This document shows positions 23,397 through 26,571 of a stretch of DNA of 44,633 nt, piece by piece. Each line of letters opens with the position of its first letter. Position 1 is the stretch's first letter. The notes below the pieces were generated by a model. The model saw only the letters and a program-made list of their open reading frames with translations, searched no databases and was not told where the DNA came from. This stretch comes from Desulfuromonadales bacterium (lineage in GTDB: Bacteria > Desulfobacterota > Desulfuromonadia > Geobacterales > Pseudopelobacteraceae), in NCBI GenBank assembly GCA_016650295.1, contig JAENWA010000027.1:1-44633 (forward strand). Direction: 5' to 3'. The position numbers were made by a program, and so were the translations under genes.

Positions 23397-23828
23397 GTGA
23401 AGTCCCATCGCGCCCGGCACTCGGTTCAACTGGCCGTGACCAATCTGGCGGTGACCGAAGCCTTTTACGCCGGTATCCTGGAATTGCCGGTGCAGCGATC
23501 ACTTACCTCAATCGGGGCACCTGATCACCTTGTGCTGGATATGGACGGTATCGCGCTGGTTTTTGTGGATGAGGACGATGTTGTCAGGGCACATCCGGTG
23601 CTGAGAAACCGTTTCAGCATGTTTCCGCGCGGGATCGGGGTTACCCTGCATTTTGAGGTCAAGGATCTGGAAGGCATCAGTGATGCCATTAACGAGGAAG
23701 GTTTGGAGATACTCTATCCGCTTGAGATCAAGCCCTACGGTGTCAAGGAGATGTGGTGTTTCGATCCCGACGGTTATCTGGTGGTGCTGGATGAAGAACG
23801 GGAACCTGCAATAAAGGCCGGGGCGTAG
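23397..23828 (+). CDS. VOC (glyoxalase/dioxygenase fold) family protein
   Basis: 143 residues starting at a GTG directly after the ccdA stop (TAAGTG), with GGAGG upstream. Beta-alpha-beta-beta-beta pattern with HSVQLAVTNLAVTEAFYAGI at the start and WCFDPDGYLVVLDEE at the end is typical of the VOC superfamily. Possible metal ligands are His8 and Glu near the C-terminus. Substrate unknown. Its stop codon is inside the terminator stem. Confidence 0.85.
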   Translation: MKSHRARHSVQLAVTNLAVTEAFYAGILELPVQRSLTSIGAPDHLVLDMDGIALVFVDEDDVVRAHPVLRNRFSMFPRGIGVTLHFEVKDLEGISDAINEEGLEILYPLEIKPYGVKEMWCFDPDGYLVVLDEEREPAIKAGA

Positions 23829-23850
23829 CCAGGCCTTTATTGTTTTTTAT
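23810..23850 (+). terminator. Terminator at the end of the ccdA/VOC operon
   Basis: AATAAAGGCC (23810-23819) pairs with GGCCTTTATT (23832-23841), followed by GTTTTTTATTTT. The stem begins inside the VOC gene and also covers the end of the selenoprotein frame on the other strand. Confidence 0.85.
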
Positions 23851-23986
23851 TTTCTTTTTTCTCCTCCCGCGACGCGGGGGAACAGGTGTCGGACATTCAG
23901 GTCCGGACACCCAGTTTTGGAAGAATATAGCGGTTGAGTACAAACCAGATTACAAAAACAGCGACGATAATCAATATGTCTTTCAT
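23837..23986 (-). CDS. Candidate small membrane selenoprotein (in-frame TGA read as selenocysteine)
   Basis: The ATG at 23986 has a very strong AGGAGGGA ahead. The frame reads MKDILIIVAVFVIWFVLNRY, a single membrane helix, then ILPKLGVRT, then TGA at 23897-23899, then MSDTCSPASREEKKENKKQ and TAA at 23837. Reading TGA as Sec (U30) gives a 49-residue protein with a U-x4-C pair (UMSDTC), a redox-like motif just outside the membrane, and a charged tail. A SECIS-like hairpin follows at 23861-23882. If the TGA is a plain stop, the product is a 29-residue membrane peptide. I recall similar small Geobacter proteins ending in LGV-x-T but cannot name the family. It is divergent from a copper P-type ATPase. 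Confidence 0.65.
23861..23882 (-). promoter_or_regulatory. SECIS-like hairpin for selenocysteine insertion
   Basis: On the reverse strand TTCC-CCCGC, a GTC apical loop, and GCGGG-A-GGAG form a nine-pair stem with one bulged A. The loop is 24-26 bases after the TGA and begins with G, consistent with the bacterial SECIS rules (loop 16-37 bases downstream, G in the first two loop positions). Confidence 0.55.
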
Positions 23987-24135
23987 AGCTTCCCTCCTGA
24001 TTTGTTTCTAGCACATATTCAAAAAAACATATACAAATAGTTTATCGACCACGTGTATGGATAATTCACTCCCGGCTTCATCAGTGCACCACCTGAACAT
24101 CGGGATCTGGACGATGTTGTGGTGAATATCCAGGT

Positions 24136-26571
24136 ATGGCCATGACCAACAGAGCAGAACATTCCTGTCATCACTGCGGCATCAGCTTCGGCTGGAACCC
24201 GCTGGAGACCCGCACCGAAGACGACACGACACAGCTGTTCTGCTGCCGCGGCTGCCAGGGGGCATTCCGGTTGGTCTGCGCCGCTGGTCTGGGCGGCTTC
24301 TACAGCCGGGATGACCGGGCCTTGCCAACCGTTTCCGGGGCCACTTCGGCGCCCTATCGCGATGACGACCTGAACCGGCATGTTGCGGCCGATGGAGAGT
24401 ACTGCCGACTGGATATTCTTGTGTGCGGCATCAGCTGTCCCTCCTGCATCTGGCTTCTGGAACGGATGATTGCCCGCGTCAGCGGTGTGGCCGAGGTCAG
24501 CATCTCCTACGCCGGCGGTATTGCCTCGGTGCGCTTCGATCCGGCCCTGACGCTGCCGTCGGCAATCTTCGAATCCATCAGCGGTCTGGGATTCCTGCCG
24601 CGTCCCTATACACCCGCCTTATCCGACCGTGAAGCACGCCGCGAGCGCAATGACCTGCTGCTGCGTTTCGGCACGGCGCTGTTTCTGACCATGCAGCTGA
24701 TGGCCTATTCATACAGCCTCTACGCCGGGTACTTTCAGGGCATGAGCCCTGCCATCAAGTCTATCCTCCAGTATGCCTCGCTGCTGGTTGCCACGCCGGT
24801 TGTCTTTTACTGCGGGTGGCCATTTCTGGCAGGGGCCTGGCAATCGCTTCGAGCCCGGTCACCCGGAATGGACCTGCTGATCGCGGTCGGGGCCCTGGCG
24901 GCCTGGATCTACAGTGCCTGGGCGCTGGCTGTCGGCCGGGAAACCTACTTTGAGAGCGCGGCCATGATCGTGACCTTTGTCCTTGTGGGGCGCCTGCTTG
25001 AACTGTCGGTGCGCCGCACGGCCCTGTCCGGTATCGAGGCGCTCTACGCCGCCGCATCCCAGCGGGCCACCCTGCTGGAGCAGGGCGGTCATCGCGATGT
25101 CCCGGCGGCGGATGTCCGGCCGGGAGACCGGCTGCTGGTGCGGCAGGGGGAACGCTTCCCGGTGGACTGCCTTGTGCTGGAAGGGGAGACCGAGGTCGAT
25201 CAGTCGCTGGTGACCGGAGAAAGCGTCCCCGTGCTCGTCCAGCCGGACAGCGAGATTCGCGCCGGATGTGTCAACATCGCCGCACCGATCCAGGTCCAGG
25301 CCTTGCGGCCGGTCGGACACAGCTACCTGATGCGGGTGGCGGCCCTGGTACGGATGGCCCAGGCCGGAAAACCTGCCCTGCAGCGACTGGCCGACCGTAT
25401 CGCCGGCTGGTTCGTACCGGCGGTGATTCTTCTGGCGGTCCTGGTGTTTGCCGGTCAGTATGTTGCGGTGGGGCAGGGTTTCGGTCCGGCGCTGATGGTT
25501 TCACTGTCGGTGGTGCTGATCGCCTGTCCCTGCGCCATGGGGCTGGCGGTTCCGGCTGCGGTTCTGGCCGCCTGCAGCCGTTCGGCGGCACTGGGTATCA
25601 TCCTGCGCAGCGGAGAGGTCATTGAACGGCTGGCAGCGGTTCAAAGCGTCTTCTTCGATAAAACCGGCACCATTACCATGGGGCAGCCGCAGGTTATCAG
25701 TTTCTGCACCTTCAACGGACTGGATGAACTGGAGGTTCTGAGCGCAGCGGCCAGCGCGGAACAGCCCGCTGCCCACCCGCTTGCCCGTGCGATCGTCGCT
25801 TTTGCCGCCGAAATCGGCCTTTTGCCGGGAGAGTGCCGGGGTTTCGCCATCACGCCGGGAAAAGGGATTCGCGGCGAAACGGAGGGGTCGCGTCGGATAT
25901 TGTGCGGCAGCGCTGCCTTTCTTGAGGAACAGGGCGTCCCGCTGTCCGGTCGTGATGACCGCGAGATTGCCGGCGATACGGAGGTTCTGGTGGTGATTGA
26001 CGGCCGACTGGCGGGCCGCTTTCTGCTGTGTGACCAGCTCCGGCCGGGTGCTGAAGAGCTTGTTTCGTCCCTGATATCGCGCGGCCTGGATCTGATGTTG
26101 GTGAGCGGTGATGCGCAACCGGTGGTGGACCGGATTGCCGCCGCGATCGGTATGGGGAGGGCGCTGGGCAACATGACACCCGACCGGAAGCTGGAACTGG
26201 TGCAGAGTACCCAGGCTGAAGGACGGATAGTGCTCATGGCAGGCGACGGCGTCAACGACGCCCCGGCACTGGCCGCGGCAGATGTCAGCTGCTCCCTGAC
26301 TGGTTCCTGTGATATTGCCCTGGAAAATGCCGATATAATCATCACCGGTGATGACCTCAGGCGTCTGGCTACCGCGCACCGCATCGCCTGCACAACCATG
26401 TCCGTCATCAGGCAGAACCTTGCCTGGGCCTTTCTGTACAACATTATCGGCATCCCGCTGGCGATGTTCGGTGTCCTGACACCCGTGTATGCCGCCGTGG
26501 CCATGACCGCCAGCTCACTGCTGGTCTCGCTCAACTCGCTGCGTTTGATGAGGATCAAACATCATGGATGA
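24136..26571 (+). CDS. Heavy-metal (copper) P-type ATPase, CcoI/FixI-like
   Basis: 811 residues. N-terminal metal-binding module CHHCGISFGW with FCCRGCQGAFRLV, then a ferredoxin-like HMA domain with CPSC (CGISCPSCIWLLERM). Eight membrane helices follow with the CPC metal site (Cys464-Pro-Cys466), phosphorylation Asp508 in DKTGT, TGES, HP (AAHPLARAI) and GDGVNDAPAL. The N-terminal CCRGC domain and the ccoS gene directly behind (8-bp overlap) mark it as the CcoI type, delivering copper for cbb3-type cytochrome oxidase assembly. No oxidase subunit genes are in the window. The ribosome site before the ATG is weak. Confidence 0.93.
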   Translation: MAMTNRAEHSCHHCGISFGWNPLETRTEDDTTQLFCCRGCQGAFRLVCAAGLGGFYSRDDRALPTVSGATSAPYRDDDLNRHVAADGEYCRLDILVCGISCPSCIWLLERMIARVSGVAEVSISYAGGIASVRFDPALTLPSAIFESISGLGFLPRPYTPALSDREARRERNDLLLRFGTALFLTMQLMAYSYSLYAGYFQGMSPAIKSILQYASLLVATPVVFYCGWPFLAGAWQSLRARSPGMDLLIAVGALAAWIYSAWALAVGRETYFESAAMIVTFVLVGRLLELSVRRTALSGIEALYAAASQRATLLEQGGHRDVPAADVRPGDRLLVRQGERFPVDCLVLEGETEVDQSLVTGESVPVLVQPDSEIRAGCVNIAAPIQVQALRPVGHSYLMRVAALVRMAQAGKPALQRLADRIAGWFVPAVILLAVLVFAGQYVAVGQGFGPALMVSLSVVLIACPCAMGLAVPAAVLAACSRSAALGIILRSGEVIERLAAVQSVFFDKTGTITMGQPQVISFCTFNGLDELEVLSAAASAEQPAAHPLARAIVAFAAEIGLLPGECRGFAITPGKGIRGETEGSRRILCGSAAFLEEQGVPLSGRDDREIAGDTEVLVVIDGRLAGRFLLCDQLRPGAEELVSSLISRGLDLMLVSGDAQPVVDRIAAAIGMGRALGNMTPDRKLELVQSTQAEGRIVLMAGDGVNDAPALAAADVSCSLTGSCDIALENADIIITGDDLRRLATAHRIACTTMSVIRQNLAWAFLYNIIGIPLAMFGVLTPVYAAVAMTASSLLVSLNSLRLMRIKHHG

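Follow-up and report, generated by a model that had tools for sequence, protein, structure and literature searches.

Bacterial selenoproteins made with the help of SelB and a SECIS element, such as formate dehydrogenase and glycine reductase, are encoded by genes with an in-frame UGA, a hairpin shortly downstream of it and a G early in the hairpin loop. The genomes of such bacteria carry the machinery for selenocysteine (Sec), and a Cys is usually found near the Sec. All of these features recur in a short gene on the minus strand of a 44,633-nucleotide stretch of DNA from a Desulfuromonadales bacterium (the whole stretch is called the window below). Unlike the known bacterial selenoproteins, its predicted product has only 49 amino acids and one membrane helix, contains neither a thioredoxin-like nor a metal-cofactor domain, lacks convincing Cys homologues and falls outside the families with which we compared it. 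In eukaryotes, SelK and SelS consist of one membrane helix and a cytosolic tail, flexible and charged, that carries Sec. As these proteins are generally described, their architecture is alike; we claim no homology, Sec being located near the C terminus in SelK and SelS and near the end of the helix here, and eukaryotic Sec insertion differs as well. Respiratory complexes contain small subunits (CydX, CcoQ and CcoS, for example) that share the size and the single helix, whereas an operon link is missing for the selenoprotein gene; to our knowledge, Sec does not occur in CydX, CcoQ or CcoS. Taken as a whole, our observations are best explained by a membrane-tethered micro-selenoprotein, a reading that we consider likely (probability of about 0.7) and that is not backed by experiment.

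The open reading frame comprises 49 codons with an in-frame TGA (23837-23986, minus strand). Read from the sequence, it begins with an ATG at 23986-23984, 6 nt downstream of the ribosome site AGGAGG (23998-23993), encodes 29 amino acids (MKDILIIVAVFVIWFVLNRYILPKLGVRT) before the TGA at 23899-23897, and continues for 19 codons (MSDTCSPASREEKKENKKQ) to the final TAA at 23839-23837; if the TGA specifies Sec, the product is MKDILIIVAVFVIWFVLNRYILPKLGVRT-U-MSDTCSPASREEKKENKKQ. Because of the stop codon inside its frame, the gene is hidden. Codons 2-24 (23915-23983) encode a single membrane helix, as predicted by AlphaFold2, hydrophobicity and the distribution of Lys and Arg. The predicted Sec codon is codon 30, and Cys35 (23882-23884), five residues further on, is its probable redox partner, Cys being usual at this place among members of the family. 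A SECIS-like hairpin with a seven-pair stem and the loop GUC (23873-23871) is located within codons 36-42 (23864-23880). A preceding reading of the window, made from sequence alone, had noticed the TGA-containing frame with its 29-residue first piece, 19 further codons and Cys five residues after the TGA, along with an excellent ribosome site, one membrane helix and a hairpin with a GTC loop 24-26 bases past the TGA. All of these claims held, the helix as a prediction and the hairpin by RNA folding; the strand, which that reading had not given, is minus. At the 3' end, a perfect inverted repeat (CAATAAAGGCC / GGCCTTTATTG, 23809-23842, without strand) spans the ends of two convergent genes, the selenoprotein gene and a glyoxalase-like gene, and could possibly be a terminator shared by both; a shorter form of the repeat was flagged on the plus strand.

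Hundreds of related bacteria keep this gene with TGA at one and the same site. With the read-through protein as query, 37 of the 39 nearest genomes gave a match at E <= 0.1, and a profile of 25 rows matched 221 of 277 genomes of the class at E <= 0.001, numbers that set the family apart from chance. The same profile matched 168 of 395 sampled genomes of the phylum at E <= 0.01, and a profile of 34 rows, which included divergent members, matched 175 of the 395 (116 of 246 genera); the first of these phylum tallies includes one match not counted as a member (G404) and the second includes two (G362 and G583). The codon at the Sec site was TGA in every convincing match read, in the class as well as in the phylum sample. 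Further searches of genomes from either set gave the same codon in their convincing matches, and in five phylum rows without a visible stop the alignment had ended just short of the site, where the DNA has TGA. The 34-row profile contributed eight low-scoring additions, six of which carry TGA (G299, G315, G339, G484, G495 and G554), the other two (G362 and G583) being chance matches. Both the gene and the constancy of its Sec codon are supported by comparison. The 147 distinct members analysed below are no evidence for this constancy, since they were gathered by a rule that required TGA; the evidence comes from the profile searches.

Several further matches were set aside. With TAA in the place of the Sec codon, G404 (E = 0.008) probably does not belong to the family. 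The G362 match and a second match in G085 are located inside open reading frames of 297 and 295 amino acids, and a 15.7-bit match in G006 lies inside one of 364 amino acids and stops short of the Sec site; none of the three was counted as a member. Matches in G034, G522, G538 (two), G561 and G583 have the appearance of chance. A second match in G305 (C23; LLPHMGVST-TGA-VRQAC) has no helix in frame upstream and is perhaps a decayed copy, and a second stretch beside the main copy in G484 contains two stops and was not counted. A scan of the genome contigs with the single protein yielded three loci and was limited by its exact patterns, while a search of plasmids gave no match. As separate observations, G315 carries two divergent tandem copies, each with its own TGA (L198, 1318-1641, minus strand), of which the first keeps a Cys after the Sec (UGPKKQC) and the second does not, so that the two perhaps form a hetero-pair; and in G118 (L058) 179 codons come after the Sec before a stop is reached, which may reflect a fusion, a lost stop or a sequence error.

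The codons that flank the hairpin after the TGA evolve as protein, a conclusion supported by comparison of related sequences. Across 186 pairs that are 70-97% identical ahead of the TGA, codons 2-29 and codons 31-35 both had a pN/pS of 0.26, the hairpin codons 36-42 had 0.70 and codons 43-47 had 0.39. The hairpin codons also showed depressed pS (0.35 vs 0.57, 0.64 and 0.88 elsewhere), which is expected if RNA structure constrains them; the same codons serve both the hairpin and the reading of the protein. Given that the pairs share ancestry, these figures are descriptive and do not amount to a statistical test, and common descent likewise means that neither pairwise comparisons nor genome counts are independent here. 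These data bear on an alternative in which translation truly ends at the TGA, the product is a membrane peptide of 29 residues and the hairpin is regulatory or a terminator. In favour of this alternative, table 11 lists TGA as a stop, and the hairpin follows it. However, protein-like evolution continues beyond the TGA, neither TAA nor TAG occupies the site in any convincing match even though the final stops do vary (TAA in 77, TGA in 36 and TAG in 34 of the 147 members), the hairpin is followed by A-rich sequence rather than T, for which reason we rejected a terminator, and the gene co-occurs with SelB. We therefore regard a true stop as very unlikely.

The hairpin itself is supported by folding as well as by covariation. 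From six bases before the TGA, the 69 nt at 23905-23837 fold with a minimum free energy of -19.9 kcal/mol (z = -3.4), a stability matched by one of 200 shuffles; the stem of the window's copy has seven pairs and one C-A mismatch, and the three loop bases GUC are 24-26 nt away from the TGA on its 3' side. In an alignment of 35 sequences without gaps, the stem is formed by columns 20-26 and 30-36 around a loop at 27-29, in which G27 is invariant. Pairing was found in 91.4% of cells (76.1% when shuffled), six of the seven pairs change on both sides, and covariation reached 0.500, compared to 0.239 for shuffled sequences and at most 0.202 for a slid register; RNAalifold predicted the same stem. 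The number of further pair types in these 35 sequences was unexceptional, being reached by 75 of 500 shuffles. Since the 35 sequences had been selected from 43, the whole set was rerun in the same register, giving 87.7% pairing vs 73.0% shuffled (maximum 77.7), 60 compensated cells vs 26.3 shuffled (maximum 42) and G27 in 41 of 43. Forcing all 147 members into one register lowered pairing to 64.4% (51.1% shuffled, maximum 54.0), because the position of the loop varies between branches. When members were folded singly, the centre of the apical loop had a median of 27.5 nt and fell between 20 and 34 in 136 of 147, a G occupied one of the first two loop bases in 127, and the mean gain in folding energy over shuffles was 2.5 kcal/mol (0.4 at 289 ordinary TGA stops from the same regions); 22 of the 147 folded no better than their own shuffles. 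Covariation of the hairpin is supported by comparison, and its role in Sec insertion is inferred.

The source genome (4.07 Mb, 123 contigs, 99.1% complete) is equipped to make selenoproteins: selC, the gene for tRNA-Sec (77.9 bits), adjoins selB (359.4 bits) on one contig, and selA is present as well (615.8 bits). Across genomes, presence of the gene tracks SelB (scored as a match at E <= 1e-60), a strong association with exceptions among genomes that are not independent. Among the 277 genomes of the class, 210 have gene and SelB, 11 the gene only, 27 SelB only and 29 neither (Fisher p = 2.9e-15); for high-quality class genomes, the counts, derived from tallies, are 158, 3, 14 and 12 (p = 1.3e-9), and for the phylum sample (395 genomes) 160, 8, 193 and 34 (p = 9e-4). 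The number of SelB-positive phylum genomes without the gene (193 of 353) was counted with the narrower profile, and all p values are too small because the genomes are related. High-quality genomes with the gene and without a SelB match at E = 1e-60 are G053, G112 and G255 in the class, in all three of which the gene is intact, and G288, G314, G335 and G381 in the phylum sample. Assembly gaps are a likely explanation for the genomes with the gene only (11 in the class, 8 in the phylum), which has not been demonstrated directly.

Such genomes lend some support to another alternative, in which the UGA would encode a different residue or mostly cause termination, providing a selenium-dependent switch between forms of 29 and 49 residues; moreover, the parts encoded on either side of the TGA are separable. 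Against this stand the hairpin spacing, the loop G and the co-occurrence with SelB, all of which fit ordinary Sec insertion, and termination at the UGA under low selenium would not exclude that the Sec form is functional. We consider the switch very unlikely, and reading of the UGA at codon 30 as Sec very likely, Sec insertion being inferred without experiment.

Homologues with Cys aligned to Sec are a usual, though not essential, sign of a bacterial selenoprotein. In the profiles used here, C stood in for Sec, and a Cys homologue should therefore score well. Nevertheless, no convincing homologue with Cys at this site was found in the searches of the class and the sampled phylum. Moreover, of the 12 high-quality class genomes with neither SelB nor the gene, nine were searched with the broader profile of 34 rows at E <= 0.1 and yielded no member, which argues against replacement by a Cys version in these nine. 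In the absence of a convincing Cys homologue, the family looks Sec-only. Full-length matches without a stop were obtained only at insignificant scores, in G438 (E = 0.045) and G653 (E = 0.076). These are short one-helix proteins (MEKWLI...RRGGMGCCGGGH; L200 and L201) that resemble the selenoprotein in having a helix followed by a Cys pair (GMGCC) and a charged tail, and each of the two genomes carries a true member besides. Owing to their scores and the lack of both an LPxxG motif and a TGA, they were not counted as members; they may represent a small family of separate origin or else remote Cys analogues, and a distant Cys analogue somewhere cannot be excluded.

Of the checks that the sequence-only reading had named, two came out in its favour, selA, selB and selC being found in the genome and the hairpin showing compensatory changes; another, for homologues with a Cys codon in place of the TGA, gave none that convinces. 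Homologues ending at the TGA, which it had held would refute it, were not what we saw: the homologues instead continue as coding sequence. Its proposal of a selenoprotein is thus supported by the machinery, the coding continuation and the covarying hairpin, with Sec insertion still an inference.

As to the protein, 29 residues come before the Sec in 94 of 147 members, 28 in 44 and 26-31 in the other nine. W14, P23 and G26 are near-invariant, and T29 is present in most members. The AlphaFold2 prediction (mean pLDDT 72.8, pTM 0.42) has a helix at residues 2-24 as its only structure. In 141 of 147 members, Lys and Arg are commoner directly behind the helix than ahead of it, from which a cytosolic location of the Sec end is inferred by the positive-inside rule, and Sec is the sixth residue past the predicted end of the helix, behind the motif LP[KR]hG[VI]xT, a distance that would place it at the cytoplasmic face of the membrane. 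A conserved UMSxxC, as the sequence-only reading had suggested, held in part: the Sec codon is universal, and the first Cys follows at +5 in 121 of 147 members. In 17 others it is found elsewhere within 22 residues, and in nine there is none within that distance, so that a Sec-Cys pair is not general. In branch f10, where the flanks mostly read G[LMF]G-U-G[PA]xxC, Sec was present in all 12 sequences read and Cys at +5 in 11. Among the members read, Sec is the constant of the family and Cys its usual companion. As an observation on its own, family f101 (L148, L149, L154 and L160) has no Cys after the Sec and a tail of its own (U-GAP...KRP[IV]PT), and Sec there would work without the usual partner.

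We propose that SelB with Sec-tRNA would read the UGA at codon 30, aided by a downstream hairpin that is itself translated. The product would span the membrane once, with its N terminus predicted outside and its C terminus in the cytosol, so that Sec would be positioned at the cytoplasmic membrane face, with a flexible charged tail behind it. The Cys that most members have at +5 could form a selenenylsulfide with the Sec. Such a selenol device at the membrane surface may reduce an oxidised partner close to the membrane (a peroxide, radical, disulfide or persulfide) and would then be recycled by cytosolic thiols. Topology, redox role, partner and substrate are all inferred, and we favour the redox role in this form by a narrow margin only. 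The main functional rival, which we consider less likely, also assumes a selenoprotein and would make Sec a structural or metal-ligand residue, rather than a free redox agent, in a protein that serves a large membrane complex as a small subunit. Size, the single helix and the near-invariant W14, P23 and G26 fit this possibility (compare CydX and CcoQ in oxidases), as do the members without a nearby Cys and an NCBIfam match to a cytochrome oxidase small assembly protein that stayed below the cut-off and is insignificant (E = 0.035). Against it, there is no conserved operon partner in 41 regions, and members in which the rest of the flanks has changed still usually have Cys at +5. The comparative data do not decide between this possibility and the redox device.

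We found no description of the family. In NCBIfam release 20.0, the best match of the window protein scored 13.9 bits against a cut-off of 27.5, and 34 members gave best E values of 0.016-0.035 to unrelated models, none over the cut-off; Pfam-A, searched with the window protein only, gave a single match of 12.8 bits (gathering cut-off 25). The unannotated status that had been claimed for the gene holds as far as these two collections go. Solved structures gave no match at E <= 1, and Rfam chance matches only. An inventory of 119 selenoprotein families from 2026 (PMC13188914), whose Table 1 gives names, domains and motifs and no sequences, has no entry recognisable by any of these, and no description of the family was recognised in the open-access literature searched (including PMC1914089, PMC1242214, PMC9312934 and PMC8318568); the supplements of PMC8318568 name further candidate selenoproteins that are outside this comparison. 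A deep-Sep screen of Desulfuromonas soudanensis WTL (3,958,620 nt) reported 13 known and no new selenoproteins (PMC12013277). Genome G174, which we take to be this strain, carries the gene. By the statement of its own paper, deep-Sep may miss selenoproteins without Cys homologues (PMC12013277), a blind spot that matches what the family looks like.

Most likely, this is a new, widespread and apparently Sec-only family of one-helix micro-selenoproteins, its biochemical role being inferred; about four fifths of the class genomes have it, yet it is absent from NCBIfam and Pfam. A bolder reading would see a Sec-obligate membrane microprotein that belongs to the core equipment of much of the phylum and has a Sec for which Cys is no substitute: a bacterial counterpart of SelK and SelS in architecture, acting as a selenol device at the membrane surface, and the first visible part of a layer of very short selenoproteins. 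We think that this reading falls slightly short of being probable. If true, such selenoproteins are invisible to ordinary gene callers and to selenoprotein finders based on Cys homologues. Given that Sec has apparently never been swapped for Cys, the question of selenium versus sulfur becomes testable on a protein of 49 residues.

Upstream of the gene, no sigma-70 consensus promoter was found near it in the window. A conserved element, TATATG...GAATAT, is located at 24015-24034 (minus strand), its sole occurrence in the window. In a degenerate form (roughly GTATAT-N6to11-GAATAT), it was present in 21 of 143 upstream regions, compared to a mean of 0.32 and a maximum of 3 after shuffling, and in 18 of these 21 it lies 28-38 nt 5' of the start. 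The pattern was spotted by eye in the sequences and widened after a first try, and its count is therefore not a clean test. The element is possibly a promoter (own or special), an operator or the site of a regulator, and its placement before the start suggests that the gene has a promoter of its own.

The gene next door, divergent at 24136-26571, encodes a protein in which Pfam recognises PF12156, HMA and E1-E2_ATPase, the domains of a heavy-metal P-type ATPase. The sequence-only reading had identified this neighbour correctly and taken it to suggest a redox or metal role. Accordingly, the selenoprotein could be part of a copper ATPase and cytochrome oxidase assembly locus and serve in copper handling, for which the adjacent ATPase with its HMA and PF12156 domains is the evidence. 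We compared the window with 40 regions of 7-12 kb, in which open reading frames of at least 70 amino acids were called by a greedy rule and clustered. The ATPase cluster occurred near the gene in two of the 41 regions, CcdA-like proteins in seven and redoxin-like proteins in six, all within the window's order, and outside related genomes the gene has no recurrent neighbouring gene family. With two of 41 regions, the copper ATPase says little on function; the role drawn from it failed, and copper handling is very unlikely. In G438 and G653, an open reading frame starting MPIYEYRC, which we take to be FmdB-like, directly follows the selenoprotein gene (L187 and L192, respectively).
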